A stretch of DNA of 20,633 nt, taken from positions 1 through 20,633 of IMG/VR virus record IMGVR_UViG_3300048024_000823; one strand, written 5' to 3'. A program made the translations under genes and the position numbers. Source of the DNA: a virus. Shown in pieces: positions 5,657-17,140 of the stretch; the first letter of the stretch is position 1; each line of letters opens with the position of its first letter. Under the pieces are notes generated by a model. The model did not search any database, was not told the origin of the DNA, and worked only from the letters and a program-made list of their open reading frames with translations.

Positions 5657-6403
5657 ATGTTAAATGTTAAAAATACTGATAATATAACACATTTGTTTAA
5701 AAAAAATCAACCATTTGTTTTAAGTCATGATTTTGGATTGAGTGAAATTATCAACGTTGATAAAATATTAAAAGATTATGGAGACCTTAAAGTTATTGTA
5801 CCAGAGATAGTAGAGGGAGGTCAGTTATCAAATTTGCAAGAAATAAATCGTATAGAGATAACTATAGAACAATATGTTAAAGAATATATAAACAAAAAAA
5901 ATAACAAATATTACCTGCGTTCAGAAAATCCTTTTGGATTTGTACAACCTGAGAAAATTTTAAAATTAGAAAAAGAAATTATTAATAAGTATAATTTTGG
6001 TAAAGTAGGAGATATATCATTATGGTGGGGAGGGAAAGGTACTACCACTCCTTTACATTACGATTCCTATAGCTATAAAATCGACAGAACCCTTAAGCAG
6101 ATTCATAAAGAAAACTTCTATAAAAAACCAATAGCTCATTCTTTGTTAAGTGTTGTGAGTGGCAGCAAAGAGGTATTGTTAATTAGCCCTCAATACAATG
6201 AATTAATAGAAAATTTAGATTTAGATCATTCTGGAGCCATGTATTCTAAGACAGAGATTTCAAAAATTTTAATTAAAAATAATATAAAACAAAATATAAT
6301 AATATTAAATGAAAACCAAAGTTTAAATATACCTAGGTTTTGGTGGCATAGAATAAATAATATAAAACAAGGAATTTCAATAACTTATAATTTTAAACTA
6401 TAG
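5657..6403 (+). CDS. JmjC/cupin_8-type Fe(II)/2-oxoglutarate oxygenase-like protein
   Basis: The 248-residue protein carries the signature of the cupin_8/JmjC class. Residues 120-138 read ISLWWGGKGTTTPLHYDSY, with the H134-x-D136 metal pair. Residues 162-178 (SLLSVVSGSKEVLLISP) match the strand 'l----G-K-v-l--P'. Residues 218-234 (NENQSLNIPRFWWHRIN) match 'GD-l-iP--wwH-v-n' with the distal metal ligand H231, followed by a strand ending the barrel (GISITYNF). The facial triad is complete, so hydroxylase activity on protein, peptide or tRNA is possible. No substrate can be named. It directly precedes the L tail-tip gene, so it may act on the virion or be a late accessory. No Shine-Dalgarno site is visible. 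Confidence 0.8.
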   Translation: MLNVKNTDNITHLFKKNQPFVLSHDFGLSEIINVDKILKDYGDLKVIVPEIVEGGQLSNLQEINRIEITIEQYVKEYINKKNNKYYLRSENPFGFVQPEKILKLEKEIINKYNFGKVGDISLWWGGKGTTTPLHYDSYSYKIDRTLKQIHKENFYKKPIAHSLLSVVSGSKEVLLISPQYNELIENLDLDHSGAMYSKTEISKILIKNNIKQNIIILNENQSLNIPRFWWHRINNIKQGISITYNFKL

Positions 6404-6416: not shown

Positions 6417-7619
6417 ATGGAAGATTACCAGAAACAAGGATTAAATATGGAGCAAGCTTTTGGGCTAGCTCCCACAGCTTTAATTTCTTTGTACGAGATA
6501 TATTATTTAGAAGGATATCAAGATGTAGATGTTTATGATAACAGAAATTATGCGCTACGCCTGTGCTCAGCCGATAACCTATCTAATATAGATGCTCAAT
6601 CAGCTCAATATATACAAGAAAATGGATTGAAATGGGCAGGCTTTTCATATATGCCTATAGGCCTTCAATCTGCAAATTTTTCATCTTCTTCTCAAGGCCT
6701 GCCTAGACCTTTGATTACTATATCAAATAAAAACATATCTACATTAATAAATCAAGTTGGGCATAAAGGTACGGTTTTAGAAACTATTTCTACTTATAAT
6801 AAATATTTTAATGATATGACGAACGCAAGGGTTATGAGGAGGCAAGTATTCGCTAAATTTTTAGATGGAGATAACTTTCCTCAAAATAATAATGTAAATC
6901 CTTGGGGAGTAAGGCCTCCTGGCCCTGGTCAAGCAGCAGATTCAGCTTATGAATTTTCTTCTAGCTTATATTTTATATCAAAAAAAGCTAATGAAACGAA
7001 AGAATCTGTTGAATATGAATTGACATCATCTTTAGATGTTGAAAACGTCACTATACCCAACAGAACCATTTTAGGGGGATATTGCTCATGGTGTTATAGG
7101 GGAGAAGGTTGTTATTTCACTGGCCCAGCCGTAGCTACAGAGTTAGACGAAACCAACTTTATGCTAGGACCTCAAGATTCTTATGAAAATTCAGCTGCAT
7201 TGTCCAGATTGAATGGAGCCAGACCAAAAAAAAGAGGCGGCAGCTCTATAATCGGCGAGTTCGATTATACTGCTACTATTTCCGATTGGACTATAGACGT
7301 AAACTATCAAGCAGGTGATGTTGTTAAAACTCCTCCAGCTGCTGCTGGAGAAGGTTTTGTGGCTGGCACTAAACAGGTTCAGTTAACTGCTAACGGAAAC
7401 CTTTCTCAACAAAATGATAAAACTATATGGGTTTGTGTTCTAGACCACTTATCTAATTTAAATAATGCTCCAGAAAAAAAGGGTGGCCAATGGGTCGCTG
7501 ACCAATGCTCTAAAAGTGTAGATGCTTGCAGATTAAGATTTAGATCTGGTTATACAAAAAACAACACGCTGAGATTTGGAGGCTTTCCAGCTACAGAAGG
7601 TTATGACACAAATTCTTAA
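6417..7619 (+). CDS. L: Minor tail protein L homologue with Fe-S cysteine set and an inserted domain
   Basis: The 400-residue protein matches the lambda L family: ISLYEI near residue 23-28, the 'G-y-s--p-gl-s-nfs---Q-LPRP-i-isN---' core, the 'N----R-VFAKFLDGDNFP' region, and the C-terminal cysteine part. C223 and C232 are 9 residues apart and C364 and C371 are 7 apart, the same spacings I recall for the four cysteines that bind the Fe-S cluster in lambda L. The end is FRSGYTKNNTLRFGGFP, a family hallmark. In lambda the two pairs are close; here about 130 residues lie between them. That insert (WTIDVNYQAGDVV ... TIWVCVLDHLS) resembles a small carbohydrate-binding beta domain. An alternative start at ATG 6447 has AAGGA six bases upstream. 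It joins the tail tube to the J tip. Confidence 0.88.
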   Translation: MEDYQKQGLNMEQAFGLAPTALISLYEIYYLEGYQDVDVYDNRNYALRLCSADNLSNIDAQSAQYIQENGLKWAGFSYMPIGLQSANFSSSSQGLPRPLITISNKNISTLINQVGHKGTVLETISTYNKYFNDMTNARVMRRQVFAKFLDGDNFPQNNNVNPWGVRPPGPGQAADSAYEFSSSLYFISKKANETKESVEYELTSSLDVENVTIPNRTILGGYCSWCYRGEGCYFTGPAVATELDETNFMLGPQDSYENSAALSRLNGARPKKRGGSSIIGEFDYTATISDWTIDVNYQAGDVVKTPPAAAGEGFVAGTKQVQLTANGNLSQQNDKTIWVCVLDHLSNLNNAPEKKGGQWVADQCSKSVDACRLRFRSGYTKNNTLRFGGFPATEGYDTNS

Positions 7620-7974
7620 AAATATAAAAATACACGCCTTAAGTAAACTTCAAGAAGAAGTTTGCGGCTTTGTTGTTGAGCTAGATAGCGAAGTTTTTAT
7701 TAAGCAATGTAAAAATATTTCGACAACTCCTGAAAGCAGGTTTGAGATACATCCTGAAGCATATCTGCAAACAAAATTAGAGTCTGATATTTTAGCTATA
7801 TATCATAGCCATCCAAATTCAGAGTCTTTTTCAGAAACAGATAAATTAATATCTAGAATTAATTGTTTGCCAAATATTTTATATATAAACGAAAAGGATA
7901 AATTTGAAGCTTTTTACCCAGATCTATGCAAAGAGTATAAAATTGAAAAAATAAAGGAGATTATTGATGGTTGA
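7603..7974 (+). CDS. K: JAB/MPN (Mov34) domain tail protein, K-like without NlpC/P60 domain
   Basis: The 123-residue protein is a JAMM metalloprotease-like domain: E18/E19 (QEEVCGFVV), then H68-S-H70-P and S77-x-x-D80 (HSHPNSESFSETD), then LPNILYIN, the typical order of the N-terminal domain of lambda K. The loop from the second His to Asp is one residue shorter than the common H-x-H-x10-D, so the geometry may be altered. The NlpC/P60 cell-wall hydrolase domain that forms the second half of lambda K is missing and is not encoded nearby. The ATG at 7603 overlaps the end of L by 17 bases; a TTG at 7576 would extend it by nine residues but is less likely. It ends 8 bases inside the I gene. Confidence 0.85.
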   Translation: MTQILKNIKIHALSKLQEEVCGFVVELDSEVFIKQCKNISTTPESRFEIHPEAYLQTKLESDILAIYHSHPNSESFSETDKLISRINCLPNILYINEKDKFEAFYPDLCKEYKIEKIKEIIDG

Positions 7975-8464
7975 AGTATATTTACATGGTATATTTGAAG
8001 AAAAATTTCGGTCAAAGTATGAATTTGAGTTAGAGTCTGTAAGTGATGTATTGAAAGCTATTGATGCTGTCGAGTCAAATTTTATGACTTTTTTAGCGCG
8101 AAATTTTGACCAAATGGAATTTTCTATGCTAGTTGACGGAAAAGTTGCATCTTTAGAAGACGCTAACAAAAAAGATATGAAAAGAATAGATATTTTACCC
8201 GCAGCAAAAGGAGCCTTCCTTTTTACTTTTATTGTTGGGCTAGTTGTGTCAATCGGAGTAAGTGTTATAATGGCAGCTAATTCTGTTCAGGCTCCAACTA
8301 TGGATAATGCATCAACACAATCAGCAAAAACATCCTCTTACTCTTTTCGCGGGGAAACTAATGTAGAAAGTCAAGGAAAGCCTGTTCCTTTAGGTTATGG
8401 TAGATTGAGGGTTGGTAGTAATGTTATAGGCAATCAGACATGGAATAGGAATTTGTTTAGATGA
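7967..8464 (+). CDS. I: Tail assembly protein I homologue
   Basis: The 165-residue protein follows the lambda I family. Residues 1-78 form a beta-grasp (ubiquitin-like) domain (VEVYLHGIFEEKF ... DVLKAIDAVESNF ... MKRIDILPAAKG). Residues 82-104 are a hydrophobic Gly-rich segment (GAFLFTFIVGLVVSIGVSVIMAA). The C-terminus carries the family hallmark SYSFRGETNVESQGKPVPLGYGRLRVGSNVI. It works with L, K and J in tail-tip assembly. The start is ATG 7967, with a good Shine-Dalgarno site (AAAGGAG at 7953-7959), which rules against the TTG three bases upstream. Its TGA overlaps the ATG of J in an ATGA junction. Confidence 0.9.
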   Translation: MVEVYLHGIFEEKFRSKYEFELESVSDVLKAIDAVESNFMTFLARNFDQMEFSMLVDGKVASLEDANKKDMKRIDILPAAKGAFLFTFIVGLVVSIGVSVIMAANSVQAPTMDNASTQSAKTSSYSFRGETNVESQGKPVPLGYGRLRVGSNVIGNQTWNRNLFR

Positions 8465-11400
8465 TAAATGTAAAATTTTATGGCATTCTCAATAAAACGC
8501 TTGGGAAGAGGAAGTATAAAAATTTAGATGAATTAAAATTTTTTGTAAAGTATAATATATATCCTTGTAAAATTATTGAGCAAAAAAAAAGCTACGCAGT
8601 CCTACCATTAGTTTCTGGAGAAGGGGGAGGAAAAGGGAAAGGATCACCTCCCACTCCTTTGCTGAAACCTCCTGCTCCAGATGAAAATTCTTTACAGAGC
8701 TTTTCTCAATCTGAAACACTTGACTTAATATGCGAAGGCCCGATTGAAGGCTTTTGCGACAGTAATGGAAATTTAGTTACTGGTACTGATATCGCAAAAG
8801 GTGTTTATTTTAACGGGACAGTAGTCCAAAACGAAAATAGCACTTATAATTATAGAAGGCTAGCTTTAAATTATGCAGTTGGAAGCCATAAAGGCATAAA
8901 CCCATATTCTCGGGACGAAAAGTGGGCTCGAAGTAAAATTTATAATACCCAGTCAATTAAACAAGCTCTTGTAGGACCAAATATGGCTACAACGGATACT
9001 ATGCTTGAGGAACAAAGCGCATATAATACAGAGACCTTACAAGAAGCGGCGAAAAGACCCTTCGGTTTTTTTGCATTACTTCTTCTTCAACTTGGCGGAA
9101 AAAAACTTGGATCTACATTTAATACTGCATCCTGGTTTCAAACACAAGGATCGCATATAGGCTATTTTATAGGAGACACAAGTGGTTTGCAAAAAGCAAT
9201 AGATTACGGTTATGCAGCAAGTCAAGTAGAGCATGGATCAGACATTAGGACACATACATCAACTCGAGACTTTACTGCTTGGAGTGCTGGCCATGCAGAA
9301 TTTTCAGAAGGAGGATTTCCTGTTTCTCATACAATCAAAAATAGCGAAGTTGATTTTGCATACGCTACAATATCTATAGATGAGTTAAAAGATACCGTAG
9401 ACCATGGAGCAGGAGCTGGCAAGGTTGGTTTAATGACAACAGCCAGGGAGCATAAAGTAGGATTCTCGATAGAAATAGGCATAAACGGACTAACTGATGA
9501 AGAAGCTCAATCTAGTGAGTTTAGAGCGTGGCTGGCACATCATGGCCTTTCTCAATCCTCATCCAATCCTCGGAAATCGATCACACGAAATTATTTTGTG
9601 CAGGGGTTGGTTGCAGGTAGTAAATATTTAATAGATGTGGGAAGAGCTAGTTTCGGAGTTGATGGAGAGGTAATTTTTGGAGAAGACAGCGATTTTGATG
9701 AAGGAATGGATGATCTTGAGAGTAAAAGAAACCCAGCAGAAGTTTTTGACGCTGAAGGCTTAACGGCATTAAAGGAAGATCAAGCTCTTCCTCATAATTA
9801 CACGTCAGATCAAACCGAACCAAATTTAGGGCTTAATCGATTTCAACAATTTGGATCAGCAGACGCAATTAGAGAAGTTTACGAGAGTGGAATGGAAACT
9901 TTTTTTATGCCAACAGATGACGCAAATAACGCTTTTAATTGCTTCAAGCTACCACCTTCTATAGTGACTGTTAATGGAGATAAAATATCTAAAGCAAGAT
10001 ATCTGAAAGTGACAAAAACAGGAAGAGAATTAATATCTCCAATTATGGGTTCAAAAATTAGCTTGGAGAGTGTCACAGAAATTATAGACGAAAAAATGTC
10101 TTATCCTTACTCGGCAATTGTACAGCAATCTTTTAATTCTAGATATTTTACAGAAAAACCAGAGAGAACTTATCATTTAAAACTTAAGAAAATTTTAATA
10201 CCATCTAACTATACCCCAGACAATAGATCAACAGTTGGAGCTAATGTATACGATGGAGCTTGGGATGGTACATTTAAGTATGCTTGGTCTGATAATCCTG
10301 CATGGGTTTTATATGATTTAATGACAAATAACAGATATGGTATTGGAGCCTATTTAGATATTAACAAAATTGATAAATGGACATTATATAAAATAGGTAG
10401 ATATTGTGATGCTGTGGATGATGATGGAAACTTTGTAGGGGTTGATGATACATACAATGGTAAAGAGCCTAGATACTCAATGAACGTACTAATTTCAGAA
10501 GAAGAAGAAGCTTATGAACTTTTAAAAACTATAGCAGAAACTTTTCATGGGATAGCATATTGGGATGGAAGGGGGGTTTCTGTCTCTATAGATGGAGGAG
10601 GTAATACCATAAAATACGAAAATTTTTCAAATTCTGCAAGTTATGTTATAGGAACAAAAGTAGAGTTTCCTCACTCCACTTTTAATATATATGAAAAAAT
10701 TACAAATGGTGGTGTTGGTATTAGGCCTGGAGTAGATCAAGATTGGAAAAAATACTGGAATAAAATTCCTGCGATTGAAATTGATGAACCTGCGATTAAC
10801 TTCACCAACACAAATGTTGAAGGAGGTGTTTTCGCATATTATACAAGTTCAAAATCCACAAGATACACTGTTGCTAGAGTTGGTTATATGGATAAAACTG
10901 ATGATTACAGAAAAAAATATGAATATGTAGAAGATAAACAAGGCGTTAAAGAATTAGGAGTAATAAGAAAAAACATCGAGCCACTAGGATGTACATCAAG
11001 AGGTCAAGCGCGAAGAATGGGGCGTTGGTTTTTCCTGACCTCTTCTGTCAATACAGAGACAATCACTTTTTCTACAGATTATAGAGCTTTATTTTTAAAA
11101 CCAGGTAATATTATAGGAGTAAGCGATTCTCTTAAAAATACAAATCAATCAATAGGTAAAATAGTTGATGTTGAGGGTGATGAAATTTTAGTATTAACTC
11201 ATCCTATTACTTTACAAACCCTTAATCAAACTACAAGACAAAATAAATATTATGATATAATATTAGGTAACATTGACCCAAGTTATAATATGGATTTTTT
11301 AGACAATAAAGGATCAGTCACTGGGCAAGATATTGCTAATTTAAATAAAGCTCAAAGATTACAAGGGTCAGTTTTTCCTGCAGATGGATCAAGCATAACT

Positions 11401-14265
11401 ACTAATAGAATTAAAGTTAAAGACGTTAATGGGAATATTTTAAAATTTACTAGCTCTTTGTTAGATAGCTACGATAATGGATATAATGTAGTATCAAAAG
11501 GAACAGATTGGGCTTTAGTTAATCCAACTGATGGTGGAACATATGCTAACGATTGGCAAGAAAGAAAATACAGAATTGTAGGTATAGAAGAAGAAGGAGA
11601 AGGTAAGTATAAAATCATAGCCACCTTATTTGACGAAGAAAAAATCTCTTCCATGGATCAAAGTTTTCCAGTAATATCTTCAAATTATGAAATAACACTA
11701 GGAGATAGTACTGAGATAGCAAATGCTACCCCACCCATTATTGAAAAATTCTCCATTGTTAGCGGATCAAATCTTTCTTTTAAAGTTAAATTTTCAACAA
11801 CTATTGACGAATCCAAATTTAATAGTATAACTAATAATATTATTTTAACTGATCCATCTGGAAGTCAAGCAACATATAATAATTCAAGCAGAAATGGTGG
11901 CGGAACAAAAGAATTTACAATAAACACTGGAGTGAGTAAAACTTCTAGCTCAGTTGCTGGAGTATGGACTATTTATGTTACAACAACAGGTATACAGTCT
12001 TCTACATCTCAATCTAAAACATCTGGAGCTGGAATAGCATCAAAACTTATATCTGACGAAAGTTATAGTAATAGCCCGCCAGGAATTTCAGATGTAGGAG
12101 TATTAAACGAAGATGGAGTAACCAAAAGTAATTATCGCGTGGTTGAGACTGCTGGAGCAAGCTTTGATATAAGTTGGAAATATCAAGATATAAATTCATC
12201 TAGAACTATATACGACAACATCGCTGACTTACAAACTAATAGCCCTTTCTTTGAGGGATTCAGGGTAGGTTTGTGTCCCGTTGATAGGGGTGGATCAACT
12301 AATGCAAGTAGCGCTGGCAATCCTCTTACTAATAATGTAAAATGGATTTATGATAATAATAATTTATTGACTAGAATGCAATATACTTTTAATTATGAAT
12401 TACGGTATAATACAACAGTTGATGATAATGGAATTCAAAGTTTTGTATATGCCAATTTACAAGATCAAAGAGGAATAGCTGTAGTTATTCAGGGTGTGGC
12501 AAGAGCGGGCAACATTAGAAAATACAGCTCTAAGCAATCTTTTATTATGTACGACCCTCCGATCTCATACACGCCTGTAGTCTCTACACTCGTGCCAAGA
12601 TTTACTCCGCATGATGATATCTTTTATGATTTAAATAAAGATAAAAAAATATCAATCATCTTAACGGATGAAGAGGGGAATGAAACTCAATCAGAAACAT
12701 CTGAGCATGGTAAAATACCTGAAAACGCAAAATTTGATTTTGTAGCAGAAGCTTCAAAAAATTCAAACGTCCCATCCAATATATATTCGTTGGAGGAGGC
12801 TCAAACATTATGGAACGAAATCAGAAATAATACTATTAATTCTAATGTTGTTAATTCGCGAAGTAGAAAAATAAGTCGATGGACAGGAGGCAATGCTCAA
12901 ACAATATATATAGATATATCGTATGATAACATTAAGCTTGCTGCTGAAGCATGGGAAGAATATCAGTATATAGATCCAAAATATGGCGAACAAGTCGATA
13001 CCCACTGGGAAAATTTTCCATTAGTGCATTACGCCCACTCCGAAGAAATTAGCGACAAAGAAATGATAAATGAGTTAGGTGAATGGGGTACTGAGGATGT
13101 AATTTTTAATGACACTAATAAAACAATTTTAAGAAAAAATATTCCAGAAGGTATAGGAAGTAACACCTTATCAGCATTTGAATCCATAAAATTATTAGTA
13201 TCTGGAAACTATACAAATGGTAATGCATATGAAGAGACTCAATCTATAGGTTTTATACAGGTATTTATAGGTAAAGATAACCCAGATTTTGAACCTGCTG
13301 ATGATAACGAATTCAATTCATTAGAAGGCTCTAATCAAATAATTATCCCATACGATGACGAACTAGAAGAAGGTATTAATTATGATAACGATTTTTATAT
13401 AAAAATAAAAGCATGGGATTATTTTACTTGGAATAATTCTGCGTTAGATTTTTTAGGTAAAATAACGGAGCTTCCCAGTCAAGAGATTGATTTTGGCGTC
13501 ACTGGTTTTATAGTTGTGCCCGAAGAAGATTTAGCTGATTTATTGGAAGAAGATGAAGATGAGGCAACTGAAGAAGACTTGGCTCATGCTTTTGTTAATA
13601 CCTTTGGCGATGAAAGATTAATGGGTATGAAGCAATTTAGGGAAGGTTTAATTATAGGGGGAACAGAGGCTTGGTCATCTGCAGATGGCGCTCAAAACAA
13701 CCCAGATTCTTTCGTTAAATATCCACTAGGAAATCATACAGATTCGCATCAAGGTACTCCTGTTGGTATAGGTCAATATAACTTAGAAAATGTAACAAGC
13801 AAAACTTATACAGACATATTAGGGGAAGGAGATAGTAGTAACAAGTTTGGACTAACTAAAGGAGAGATAAATAATGACATGCTTGACTTTTATGTTAATG
13901 TCAAAGGAATGAACATTAGATGCTTGGCTGGCGACGACGGAAACTACGATGGCGTTGGAGGAATAATTTCTGGACAAACTATAAAAACTAACGGTTTCGA
14001 AGCTGGAGAGATTGTGGCTTTTTCTCAAGAGCCTACAATTAACGGTTCGCCAATGTCAACTTACTTCTCTGAAGGAGAAGGAATATCTGGAAAAATAGAT
14101 GAAGCTTTAAATAACACAAATATTTTTGACGATAAAATACAAGATACAAACTTTACTGAAAATTTAGTTATATCTGGAGACTCAAGATTAAAAGTTGAAG
14201 ATGGTAATCTTCATATAGAAGTTAATGGTATATGGTATAGGATTGAGCCTGATGGCACATCTTAA
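8461..14265 (+). CDS. J: Tail tip / host specificity protein J homologue, 1934 residues
   Basis: This very large protein is the receptor-binding tip protein. After a 50-residue start (MINVKFYGILNKTL...) and a Gly-rich linker (GEGGGKGKG) comes the J hallmark SETLDLICEGPIEGF (residues 84-98). A second J signature, NPAWVLYDLMTNNRYGIGAYL followed by DKWTLYKIGRYCD, is near residues 608-640, then YSMNVLISEEEEAYELLKTIAETFHGIAYWDG. It is far longer than lambda J (about 1130). The excess lies in an insert (about residues 190-500: SWFQTQGSHIGYFIGDTS... and a Ser/His-rich part) and in a long C-terminal half with fibronectin- or Ig-like beta repeats (about 1085-1320) and an acidic stretch (EEDLADLLEEDEDEATEEDL, near 1690). 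The end (LHIEVNGIWYRIEPDGTS) probably folds as a fibre tip. Which part binds the receptor is not visible. Confidence 0.92.
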   Translation: MINVKFYGILNKTLGKRKYKNLDELKFFVKYNIYPCKIIEQKKSYAVLPLVSGEGGGKGKGSPPTPLLKPPAPDENSLQSFSQSETLDLICEGPIEGFCDSNGNLVTGTDIAKGVYFNGTVVQNENSTYNYRRLALNYAVGSHKGINPYSRDEKWARSKIYNTQSIKQALVGPNMATTDTMLEEQSAYNTETLQEAAKRPFGFFALLLLQLGGKKLGSTFNTASWFQTQGSHIGYFIGDTSGLQKAIDYGYAASQVEHGSDIRTHTSTRDFTAWSAGHAEFSEGGFPVSHTIKNSEVDFAYATISIDELKDTVDHGAGAGKVGLMTTAREHKVGFSIEIGINGLTDEEAQSSEFRAWLAHHGLSQSSSNPRKSITRNYFVQGLVAGSKYLIDVGRASFGVDGEVIFGEDSDFDEGMDDLESKRNPAEVFDAEGLTALKEDQALPHNYTSDQTEPNLGLNRFQQFGSADAIREVYESGMETFFMPTDDANNAFNCFKLPPSIVTVNGDKISKARYLKVTKTGRELISPIMGSKISLESVTEIIDEKMSYPYSAIVQQSFNSRYFTEKPERTYHLKLKKILIPSNYTPDNRSTVGANVYDGAWDGTFKYAWSDNPAWVLYDLMTNNRYGIGAYLDINKIDKWTLYKIGRYCDAVDDDGNFVGVDDTYNGKEPRYSMNVLISEEEEAYELLKTIAETFHGIAYWDGRGVSVSIDGGGNTIKYENFSNSASYVIGTKVEFPHSTFNIYEKITNGGVGIRPGVDQDWKKYWNKIPAIEIDEPAINFTNTNVEGGVFAYYTSSKSTRYTVARVGYMDKTDDYRKKYEYVEDKQGVKELGVIRKNIEPLGCTSRGQARRMGRWFFLTSSVNTETITFSTDYRALFLKPGNIIGVSDSLKNTNQSIGKIVDVEGDEILVLTHPITLQTLNQTTRQNKYYDIILGNIDPSYNMDFLDNKGSVTGQDIANLNKAQRLQGSVFPADGSSITTNRIKVKDVNGNILKFTSSLLDSYDNGYNVVSKGTDWALVNPTDGGTYANDWQERKYRIVGIEEEGEGKYKIIATLFDEEKISSMDQSFPVISSNYEITLGDSTEIANATPPIIEKFSIVSGSNLSFKVKFSTTIDESKFNSITNNIILTDPSGSQATYNNSSRNGGGTKEFTINTGVSKTSSSVAGVWTIYVTTTGIQSSTSQSKTSGAGIASKLISDESYSNSPPGISDVGVLNEDGVTKSNYRVVETAGASFDISWKYQDINSSRTIYDNIADLQTNSPFFEGFRVGLCPVDRGGSTNASSAGNPLTNNVKWIYDNNNLLTRMQYTFNYELRYNTTVDDNGIQSFVYANLQDQRGIAVVIQGVARAGNIRKYSSKQSFIMYDPPISYTPVVSTLVPRFTPHDDIFYDLNKDKKISIILTDEEGNETQSETSEHGKIPENAKFDFVAEASKNSNVPSNIYSLEEAQTLWNEIRNNTINSNVVNSRSRKISRWTGGNAQTIYIDISYDNIKLAAEAWEEYQYIDPKYGEQVDTHWENFPLVHYAHSEEISDKEMINELGEWGTEDVIFNDTNKTILRKNIPEGIGSNTLSAFESIKLLVSGNYTNGNAYEETQSIGFIQVFIGKDNPDFEPADDNEFNSLEGSNQIIIPYDDELEEGINYDNDFYIKIKAWDYFTWNNSALDFLGKITELPSQEIDFGVTGFIVVPEEDLADLLEEDEDEATEEDLAHAFVNTFGDERLMGMKQFREGLIIGGTEAWSSADGAQNNPDSFVKYPLGNHTDSHQGTPVGIGQYNLENVTSKTYTDILGEGDSSNKFGLTKGEINNDMLDFYVNVKGMNIRCLAGDDGNYDGVGGIISGQTIKTNGFEAGEIVAFSQEPTINGSPMSTYFSEGEGISGKIDEALNNTNIFDDKIQDTNFTENLVISGDSRLKVEDGNLHIEVNGIWYRIEPDGTS

Positions 14266-14787: not shown

Positions 14788-15327
14788 TTATCTATATTCA
14801 TGCCTTAATAATCTCCAACGATCAGAATCAATTGGCTTTGATCCGTCATTGATTGCAAATAGCATATCCACAATTTCTTCTACCGAATCATAAATGTACT
14901 TGTGAGGTAACATACCAAGCATCCAAAGTGGAGTTTTTGACTTGCCCCCTTCCATGCTTATAAAGATTGGCTTCTTCATCCTAACAGCAGTTACAATTTC
15001 TTCAGCGCTACCCCAAGAAGCTACAGAGGGGACAAGATGAGCAATAATAAAGTCACTTCTATCTACTAAGTTTAAATCATATGCTCTTACGGTTTTCATT
15101 CTTTGAGCTGCCCTATCGTATTGCTTAGTTTTCATCCAATTTTCCATCTCAAGCCTAGACGCTTCATCTTCTTCTACGTCTTTCATAAATGGCTTTTCGT
15201 AAGGGTCAAAACAAGTTACATTGATTTCAGAGAGCTTTTGAGTAACTTCAGTTCTCCAATTTCTTCCGCTAATATATTGCATATGGCCGACTAGATAAGT
15301 TTTAGTTTTTTCTAGAATATTTTTCAT
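14788..15327 (-). CDS. Nucleoside 2-deoxyribosyltransferase-like protein
   Basis: The correct start is ATG at 15327-15325 (MKNILEKTKTYLVGHMQY); a longer frame exists upstream but runs through the promoter. The 179-residue protein follows the nucleoside 2-deoxyribosyltransferase fold common in phages: TYLVGHM at residues 10-16, a helix, CFDPYEKP at 39-46, KQYDRAAQRMKTVRAYDLNLVDRSDFIIAHL at 68-98, GSAEEIVTAV at 106-115 with E109/E110 as the likely nucleophilic glutamate, KPIFISMEGGKSKTPLWMLGMLPH. Such enzymes exchange the base on deoxynucleosides or hydrolyse them, feeding nucleotide salvage or base modification. The catalytic residues look intact. It has its own promoter, divergent from the small genes at 15368. 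Confidence 0.82.
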   Translation of the reverse strand: MKNILEKTKTYLVGHMQYISGRNWRTEVTQKLSEINVTCFDPYEKPFMKDVEEDEASRLEMENWMKTKQYDRAAQRMKTVRAYDLNLVDRSDFIIAHLVPSVASWGSAEEIVTAVRMKKPIFISMEGGKSKTPLWMLGMLPHKYIYDSVEEIVDMLFAINDGSKPIDSDRWRLLRHEYR

Positions 15328-15333
15328 ATTATA

Positions 15334-15367: not shown

Positions 15368-15589
15368 ATGAATAATAGTACGCCAGAAGAAATGAATTTA
15401 ATAACGATATTTATGGATGTAAATAAAACTCCAGAGCAAACTTGCAAGGAAATTGATTTTGAAGGTTGCGAGCAAATGAAAAGAGATTATCTTTCTGAAG
15501 TTAATACGCCTGGAGGCTGCTCGTCGTGCAGGAAAGCTAGCGTGAGGAGAAAATACACATCTTTTATTAAACCAAAAATTAAAAAATGA
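15368..15589 (+). CDS. Small cysteine-motif phage protein, 73 residues
   Basis: The ATG at 15368 is chosen over a TTG at 15356, which lies inside the divergent promoter. The protein has four cysteines, C26, C34, C51 and C54; the last two sit in P-G-G-C-S-S-C-R-K followed by basic residues (ASVRRKYTSF). Small proteins with 'GGCSSCRK' and a basic tail occur in many phages and may bind zinc and nucleic acid, but no function is established to my knowledge. It is followed by an ATGA overlap with the next gene. I see no convincing rightward promoter or Shine-Dalgarno site in the 40-base divergent gap. Confidence 0.7.
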   Translation: MNNSTPEEMNLITIFMDVNKTPEQTCKEIDFEGCEQMKRDYLSEVNTPGGCSSCRKASVRRKYTSFIKPKIKK

Positions 15590-15915
15590 TAAATTATTTA
15601 TTAATTTATATTGCTTCTGTTTTAGTTGTATCTAATGTTATTGCTATATTGGAATATACTAATTTAAAGGTATATGCTCTGTCGTTATTTATAAAAGAAA
15701 AAATATATACATTAGATGATTTGCATGATTATATTGTAGATAATTGGGGAAAACTTGGAGAATTATTAAGCTGCCCTTTATGTTATAGCACTTGGCTGTC
15801 TTTGTTTTTAGGGTTGTGGTGTGTTTGGTTTTTTAATTTAAATATTATTTATGCTTTGCTTTGTATGTTTTCAATTCCTAGTCTCGCATGTTTAATAAAT
15901 AAAAAAATAATTTAA
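15586..15915 (+). CDS. Integral membrane protein with CPLC motif, 109 residues (DUF1360-like)
   Basis: The protein has an N-terminal transmembrane helix (INYLLIYIASVLVVSNVIAIL, residues 2-22), a short polar stretch (LDDLHDYIVDNWGKLGELL), then C63-P-L-C66 followed by YSTWLSLFLGLWCVWFFNL and a last hydrophobic helix (IIYALLCMFSIPSLACLI). The 'C-P-x-C----W' motif at the membrane edge recalls DUF1360-type small membrane proteins found in phages and Bacilli. It may be a holin-like or envelope protein; this is a guess. The ATG overlaps the stop of the preceding gene (ATGA). It ends two bases before the 3' end of the tmRNA on the opposite strand. Confidence 0.68.
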   Translation: MINYLLIYIASVLVVSNVIAILEYTNLKVYALSLFIKEKIYTLDDLHDYIVDNWGKLGELLSCPLCYSTWLSLFLGLWCVWFFNLNIIYALLCMFSIPSLACLINKKII

Positions 15916-15917
15916 AT

Positions 15918-16315
15918 TGGTGGACGTGGCGGGAGTCGAACCCGCGTCTTTAAATTTTCTGTAGATATACATCTACAAGTTTAGTTAATTTTTTTTACAG
16001 TTATGATATTAACATCCAACTAACCATTTCAATTATTCACTCAAACTTGAGGCCCTCGAATACTCAATGGTACAGTTTATGAAACGGATAAACTTTTATC
16101 TGTTTTGCAGATTGATGACCTCGTAATCTCTTTATCTGCGTCAAAAGTTACGAGGTAGCAGAACTAAGCTGCTAAGGCAAGCTTTTTAGCTTTTAAGCCA
16201 AAAGCTTTAACACGGTTTTTGTTGCCATGTAATTGTTTGCACCTTTTTTAGGAGCCAGATGCAACTCCTACTTGCAGTATACTAATCTAATTTAAATCGA
16301 ATCCAGTACACGCCC
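15918..16315 (-). ncRNA. ssrA: Transfer-messenger RNA (tmRNA), one-piece, complete
   Basis: The 398-base RNA rescues stalled ribosomes and adds a degradation tag. The 5' end GGGCGUG (16315-16309) pairs with CACGUCC next to the encoded CCA (15920-15918). The D-loop part GGAUUCGA and the T-arm GCGGGUUCGACUCCCGCC are canonical. H2 forms from UUUAAAUU and AAUUUAAA. PK1 forms from AGGAG/CUCCU plus UUGCA/UGCAA. H5 is UAGCAG/CUGCUA with the stop codon in its loop. PK2 has a perfect 9-base stem, ACCTCGTAA/TTACGAGGT, whose loop GCAGAT pairs with ATCTGC. CTCAA/TTGAG and TATTC/GAATA form PK4, and TGTAGAT/ATCTACA is a hairpin before the T-arm. The tag is read from GGC at 16226 to UAG at 16166-16164 and is 20 residues ending KKLALAA. 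It lies 2 bases from the gene on the opposite strand. No SmpB gene is in view. Confidence 0.95.
16164..16226 (-). other. tmRNA proteolysis tag reading frame
   Basis: Read from GGC ten bases after PK1, the tag is GNKNRVKAFGLKAKKLALAA followed by UAG. The last codons GCC UUA GCA GCU and the stop inside H5 mirror E. coli, whose tag ends ALAA. It is about twice the usual tag length and has six lysines or arginines. A second frame one base later (GCA start) gives ATKTVLKLLA followed by UAA; the ALAA end favours the first. Confidence 0.7.
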
Positions 16316-16351: not shown

Positions 16352-17140
16352 TTAAGATGAGTGTAGCGCTTTGAGTAGAGCTCTCGCTTCTTTAGGAGGA
16401 ATGTCTGAAAAGTCTGACCAATTTTTAGTGTCAGCATTTTTATACAAATCATTTTGCCACAATTCCCGAAGTTTGCTTTTGAAGTCGCTATAGTTATTGA
16501 TGCCAAATTTATCTTTTGCTAGGCTAGCGAGTATTCCAGCAGGAGAGATGTCTGAATTTGACTGCGCTTCAGTTTCTCTCTGGGTAAGATTCTGCTGAGT
16601 ATTGTTTGATTTATCGATTTCGTCATCTCCGACAATATGGACATTTAAAAAGTTTCTAACGCAGCGCACAAATGATCTATTACAAGCGATTGTTTCTAGA
16701 AATTTAGTTGCGAAGCTGCTAGTATTGTTCAGTGTTGCATTAGCCATATCCTCAAACACAATAGGCTCATTGTTGGTTTCATAGTTGGCTAGAAAAGTAA
16801 TCGAACAAGATACAGCTACATGGTCTTCTTCGCATTTTACAGTTTTATAGTTAACCGAAGAAAATCCTCTGAGTTTAGCTAGTTCTTTTATGCCACTTAA
16901 TTTTATTAAAAGTTGGTGATCCGCGAGACCTTCTATAGTTTTAGGATAATCTTTTCCTCTAGTTTGAAACCAAGATCTATTTGGAAATAAATGCTCATCT
17001 TTAATCATGGCTCTCCAATTGATTGAGCCATCGTCATTAAATTCATATTGATGGTTTTGTAGTAATCCGTTTTCGTCTCTAGCATAAAGATTTGGACCAG
17101 AGCTGTTATCTATTTTTGTTTGCTTAGTTGTTTTTTTCAT
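16352..17140 (-). CDS. Possible Rad52/RecT-type single-strand annealing protein
   Basis: The 262-residue protein has a core at residues 77-172 with the order strand-strand-strand-helix: KELAKLRGFSSVNYKTVKC, VAVSCSITFLANYE, PIVFEDMANATLNNT, then the helix FATKFLETIACNRSFVRCVRNFLNVHIVG. The final helix, with repeated Ala/Arg and 'R-x-x-R-x-V-R-N-F-L', resembles the helix of Rad52/Erf/RecT-like proteins (A--EA---ALKRA-R--G). The N-terminus is disordered and the C-terminus (LAKDKFGINNYSDFKSKLRELW, WSDFSDIPPKEARALLKAL) is a helical tail of a kind seen in DNA-processing proteins. I read this by eye; a different DNA-binding role is possible. It has its own strong promoter. It lies upstream of the tmRNA on the same strand. 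Confidence 0.48.
   Translation of the reverse strand: MKKTTKQTKIDNSSGPNLYARDENGLLQNHQYEFNDDGSINWRAMIKDEHLFPNRSWFQTRGKDYPKTIEGLADHQLLIKLSGIKELAKLRGFSSVNYKTVKCEEDHVAVSCSITFLANYETNNEPIVFEDMANATLNNTSSFATKFLETIACNRSFVRCVRNFLNVHIVGDDEIDKSNNTQQNLTQRETEAQSNSDISPAGILASLAKDKFGINNYSDFKSKLRELWQNDLYKNADTKNWSDFSDIPPKEARALLKALHSS

Follow-up and report, generated by a model that had tools for sequence, protein, structure and literature searches.

A one-piece tmRNA with a long, apparently selected tag in a lineage of large phages, several of which encode a ClpC-type unfoldase near it

The window analysed here, the whole 20,633-nucleotide stretch of the virus record IMGVR_UViG_3300048024_000823, carries an ssrA tmRNA gene on its minus strand amid phage genes. 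ARAGORN and the Rfam model RF00023 give the gene the same exact ends, and the covariance match, at 130.1 bits (E 4.5e-51; gathering score 47), covers the full model from 1 to 374. Standard gene order along positions 1-374, with the curated threshold exceeded at full length, identifies the one-piece form and rules out a two-piece (permuted) tmRNA. The features of the locus are as follows.

15918-16315, minus strand: ssrA tmRNA gene, one-piece, CCA encoded
16309-16315, minus strand: acceptor stem, 5′ side, third pair G-U
15922-15928, minus strand: acceptor stem, 3′ side
15929-15945, minus strand: T-arm
16237-16269, minus strand: pseudoknot PK1
16164-16226, minus strand: tag reading frame, with resume codon GGC, 20 codons (GNKNRVKAFGLKAKKLALAA) and stop TAG
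16156-16174, minus strand: helix H5, whose loop contains the tag stop codon
16107-16155, minus strand: pseudoknot PK2
16024-16094, minus strand: pseudoknot PK3, split by an insertion at 16038-16072
16038-16072, minus strand: insertion of about 34 nt in the PK3 region, seen by sequence comparison of relatives
15999-16021, minus strand: PK4 region
16352-17140, minus strand: gene for a 262-aa protein, 36 nt upstream of the tmRNA and on the same strand
15586-15915, plus strand: 109-aa membrane-protein-like ORF (PHROG 781), converging on the tmRNA 3′ end
6417-14265, plus strand: lambda-type tail genes (minor tail protein L, JAB/K, assembly protein, tip protein J)

A first-pass annotation of the window had described a complete tmRNA with every hallmark it named, and both gene-finding programs and the comparative structure given below agree with it; the Rfam match is strong and full-length with its helices intact, and H2 is present alongside PK1, H5, PK2, the T-arm and the acceptor stem. 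The same annotation gave PK2 a nine-base stem. Its two strands, ACCUCGUAA and UUACGAGGU, are indeed present, but the comparative model assigns eight pairs to PK2 and places the ninth A in a pair of H5. The insertion in the PK3 region recurs in the homologues L103 and L254, and a shorter version of it in some other members scattered across the clade; it is missing in close relatives such as G004. Near the tmRNA gene a terminator was not found, and no promoter scored above chance.

Along its full length the window aligns to positions 24,684-45,317 of a 193,844-nt phage contig (G001, IMGVR_UViG_3300046168_000070) with 99.995% identity. This alignment, together with the tail genes in the window itself, upholds the earlier claim that phage genes lie on both flanks of the tmRNA. 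The carrier is a bacterial virus of marine type, roughly 200 kilobases in size. Its TerL is just 22-28% identical to those of Bacillus, Clostridioides and Lactococcus phages, and its tail protein L is less than 60% identical to anything matched. ARAGORN counts one tmRNA and no tRNA on the 193,844-nt contig, and the same on its 203-kb relative, of which 200 kb was read. The 262-aa neighbour gene served as the query by which related phages were found; a tblastn search with it against INPHARED phages found nothing. A Cupin_8/JmjC-like hydroxylase gene sits amid the tail genes (5657-6403, plus strand), and a nucleoside deoxyribosyltransferase-like gene (14788-15330, minus strand) has homologues near the tmRNA in 26 loci, making it the commonest neighbour.

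Homologues of the tmRNA lie on some 50 related phage contigs from a single lineage, and 36 distinct homologue sequences were used to compare the structure over 83 pairs in 14 helices, with four pseudoknots. Across these sequences the 14 helices are paired in 92.4% of cells, both sides of a pair have changed in 253 cells as against 75 +/- 8.5 in shuffles, and partners slid by 1-3 columns pair in only 39-45%. Covariation supports PK1 to PK4 and H5, with some limits: PK2 stem 2 is uninformative because it is invariant, PK3 is paired in only about 79%, and PK4 is weakly informative. The pattern indicates a tmRNA fold that is maintained by compensatory change. The encoded CCA is present in all aligned rows and the G3-U70 pair of the tRNA-like domain in 36/36. 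A G-U third acceptor pair is an alanine identity element, and charging by the host AlaRS is therefore expected.

The tag required a choice of reading frame, as the default ARAGORN tag for the window is ANNYMATKTVLKLLA while that for the close relatives L007 and L008 is GNKNRVKAFGLKAKKLALAA, in a different frame. All 49 distinct phage tmRNAs compared leave the GGC frame open, and its pN/pS is 0.45 in the 20-aa class, 0.52 in the 21-aa class, 0.20 in the 31-aa class and 0.18 in the 34-aa class, the last consisting of three sequences only. The other two frames meet stops in most sequences and have pN/pS of about 1 or above in the 20-, 21- and 31-aa classes. Frame conservation in the homologues rules out ANNYMATKTVLKLLA. 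Because the GGC frame is open everywhere with low pN/pS and the others contain stops, GNKNRVKAFGLKAKKLALAA is the correct tag, and the purifying selection on its frame indicates that selection acts on the tag at the peptide level. The first-pass description of a 20-residue tag with six K/R, ending in ALAA and with its stop in the H5 loop, is thereby corroborated.

At 20 residues the tag is about twice the typical length, as had been noted earlier, given that 10 aa is the most frequent length in a curated tag database (PMC11915505). The longest of 52 plausible bacterial tags, a set picked by sequence pattern and no census, has 23 residues. Tags of the phage homologues run from 19 to 42 residues and fall into basic tags of 20-21 aa, very basic tags of 31-32 aa (up to 11 K/R), acidic tags of 34-40 aa, and two others of 38 and 42 aa; the long-tag members also match RF00023 strongly (123-137 bits). 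Nearly all of the 20-21 aa tags end in ALAA, with L/M at -3 and A/V at -2. In most of the phage clade the N-terminal part of the tag conforms to G-[NK]-x-x-[RN]-[VIL]-x-[AS]-[FLY], a conserved motif that vindicates the earlier suggestion of a virus-specific N-terminal part; this N-terminus varies by lineage and is under selection. The acidic 34-40 aa tags (GEGYxSIEELLEAAREEY...) are found at the tmRNA loci L236, L233, L256 and L260, with a charge opposite to that of the basic tags in this clade of tmRNAs.

We propose, with a probability of about 0.8, that this gene encodes a working virus-specific tmRNA that would depend on the host AlaRS and host SmpB and would send its tagged products to a ClpP-dependent protease. 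By the known tmRNA pathway, the host AlaRS would charge the phage tmRNA with alanine, the G3-U70 pair being kept, and host SmpB would deliver it to stalled ribosomes. Alanine followed by the 20-residue tag would be appended to the unfinished protein and the ribosome would be freed, and the C-terminal LALAA would probably direct the product to the ClpP-dependent protease for degradation. SmpB was not detected in 20 related phage records (0/20) and would have to come from the host. The fold, the reading frame, the selection on the tag and the residence of the gene in phages rest on comparison among relatives, from which we judge them to be established.

The protease end of this pathway gains a possible phage component from a gene 1.35 kb past the window end on the same phage contig. 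Located at G001 20,893-23,337, it encodes an 815-aa Clp/Hsp100 ATPase with Pfam AAA_2 (1.5e-59), Clp_N and D2-small domains. Among proteins of solved structure its closest relative is S. aureus ClpC, matched over its full length (628 bits, residues 9-812); the protein falls below the equivalog cut-offs for ClpA (689/993) and ClpB (735/1232), and no ClpC equivalog model is listed. Full-length ClpC homologues occur in 16/25 related records. The two AAA+ modules keep their Walker A and Walker B motifs and the pore loops, and 19/20 copies have a [VLIMF]GF loop that is flanked by variable sequence and aligns to the GF of ClpC. Loops of the IGF/IGL type dock ClpP (PMC8138137), and ClpP itself was not found in the 25 related phage records (0/25).

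At 11 distinct loci the tmRNA is preceded on its own strand by the Clp gene, which lies 44 nt to 6.2 kb upstream (44, 58, 163, 1320-1375, 2711, 2841, 5659-5661 and 6181 nt; 5.66 kb in the window's phage). The two genes share a strand in 12 of the 13 contigs carrying both, and their closeness on these contigs has a p value of 6e-5 against random placement, a value that overstates independence because the contigs are related. Elsewhere the Clp gene is 11-20 kb from the tmRNA (G035, G049, G054, G055) or 74 kb away on the opposite strand (G016), and in the subgroup with GKN-type 21-aa tags it was neither seen near the tmRNA nor detected on the contigs. A link between Clp and tmRNA for the whole clade is rejected on account of this subgroup. 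Other genes recur beside the tmRNA as often as Clp does.

These observations bear on a refinement of our proposal, and no alternative to it, in which the phage ClpC would read the N-terminal part of the long tag and feed tagged proteins to the host ClpP. Such a reader would account for both the conserved tag N-terminus, which is lineage-specific and selected, and the linkage of the genes in phages that encode an unfoldase with a ClpP-docking loop and lack their own ClpP, but would not account for the subgroup that has no Clp gene nearby. The scattered distances, the equally recurrent neighbours and the relatedness of the contigs also weigh against it, as do other jumbo phages that have ClpA-like proteins with no tmRNA within 20 kb, and the C-terminal LALAA would suit host ClpX as well. 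That phage ClpC reads the tag and hands its cargo to host ClpP is plausible but unproven, and we give it somewhat less than even odds. Even so, the presence of the ClpC gene just outside the window makes more concrete the idea, raised in the first-pass annotation, that the phage redirects tagged proteins.

In its broadest form this refinement would be an orthogonal disposal route, composed of the phage's own tmRNA, lineage degrons of 19-42 aa, its own ClpC plugging into host ClpP and, in some phages, N-terminal degrons that an ATE-like aminoacyl-tRNA transferase may add; we regard this as speculative and rather unlikely. An ATE-like gene is located at 66191-66952 of the window's phage contig (G001:C1; locus L289:6191-6952, plus strand) and also in G004, G040, G053, G054 and G057, about 1.6 kb from the tmRNA in G054. 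It is related to arginyl/leucyl-tRNA-protein transferases (NCBIfam 1.8e-8), with PF04377 above the cut-off in 6/20 records, and its predicted fold has human ATE1 as best Foldseek match (2.4e-9), with FemX and MprF also matched. A phage N-degron enzyme is a possible assignment for this gene.

That the tmRNA is instead a decoy, titrating SmpB and so blocking host trans-translation, has a proposed precedent in the TLD-only tmRNA of mycobacteriophage DS6A (PMC4131195), but here selection has kept both the tag frame and every pseudoknot, neither of which a decoy requires, and this reading is very improbable. In a FastTree analysis of 49 phage and 98 bacterial tmRNAs, the bacterial set chosen by pattern, 48/49 phage tmRNAs form one clade (support 100, stem 0.58) without a bacterial sister, long branches calling for caution. 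No bacterial donor is found among those 98 tmRNAs, about 700 Pseudomonadota and Bacteroidota genomes match almost only the last 30 nt or so (T-arm/acceptor), and blastn of the window's tmRNA against 50,697 INPHARED phage records gave no match. The phage-only clade and the near-confinement of these bacterial matches to the T-arm/acceptor end therefore make the tmRNA most likely a long-standing viral gene and no recent capture, as far as sequence relationships indicate.

As ssrA is a common integration site of mobile elements, it could be supposed that the gene was captured from a host not long ago or was left behind by integration, without function in the phage, yet the deep phage clade, the near-terminal bacterial matches, the selection on fold and tag and the position inside a contig of about 194 kb leave this the least probable reading of all. 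Integration at ssrA is discussed in PMC9004378. A remnant of such an integration site is rejected for the present gene, which is complete, lies inside the 194-kb phage contig and belongs to a phage-only clade. One phage tmRNA, L262:2182-2623 on the plus strand, has a 42-aa tag, falls outside the main phage clade and lies some 130 nt downstream of a tRNA gene. The viral contigs L072, L077 and L085 carry unrelated tmRNAs that have only the acceptor/T-arm sequence in common with the window, with the tags GTTTVPATASRGFRGEAMALAA, DKVVSIHPAAIAALFARKAVA and ADDYHQAVQLAA, respectively.

Why phages carry tmRNA has been a question since the earliest cases. The roughly 50 related phages described here allow tag evolution to be read directly, with length and charge varying by sublineage, and the several sublineages with a ClpP-docking unfoldase encoded just upstream provide a testable proposal, in which the virus supplies both the degron and its reader. 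Were the orthogonal disposal route true, the virus would control the selection of proteins for recycling in the infected cell. Tags of up to 42 residues, strongly basic or acidic, would also be useful as new degrons.

Phage-borne tmRNA was considered uncommon in the first-pass annotation, which is right but already known, as 402/18,146 phage genomes (2.3%) had a tmRNA by 2021 (PMC9004378). Mycobacteriophages and phage G carry tmRNA (PMC4131195), and huge phages have tmRNA plus SmpB (PMC7162821). The window's tmRNA resembles bacterial one-piece ssrA in its fold, its resume codon after PK1, its stop in H5, its hydrophobic tag end, its CCA and its G3-U70 pair, and differs in a tag of 20 aa against the commonest 10, in a basic, conserved phage-type N-terminus and in its separate clade. 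Like the tmRNA of Melnitz, a pelagimyophage, it is complete and belongs to a phage of marine bacteria, but the Melnitz tmRNA is two-piece, of alphaproteobacterial type and riboswitch-controlled, whereas that of the window is one-piece and from an unrelated phage lineage (PMC9004378). Mycobacteriophages Bxz1 and Wildcat and Bacillus phage G likewise have a phage-borne ssrA and are unrelated to the window's phage (PMC4131195). Jumbo phages of the RaK2/PBECO4/PA5oct type also encode a double-ring Clp ATPase (annotated ClpA-like), but only residues 185-793 or so of our query align, at 35-37% identity, and no tmRNA lies within 20 kb of the ClpA-like gene in RaK2 or PA5oct. In the open-access literature we found no paper that pairs a phage tmRNA with a phage ClpC. 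Gram-positive ClpC is similar over its full length, including an M-domain-sized gap between the ATPase sites and the GF docking loop, while the phage copies are 36-85% identical to one another and the copy of the window's phage stays under the ClpA/ClpB equivalog cut-offs. What is new here is that tmRNA-bearing phages encode a ClpC-type unfoldase with a ClpP-docking loop and without ClpP.
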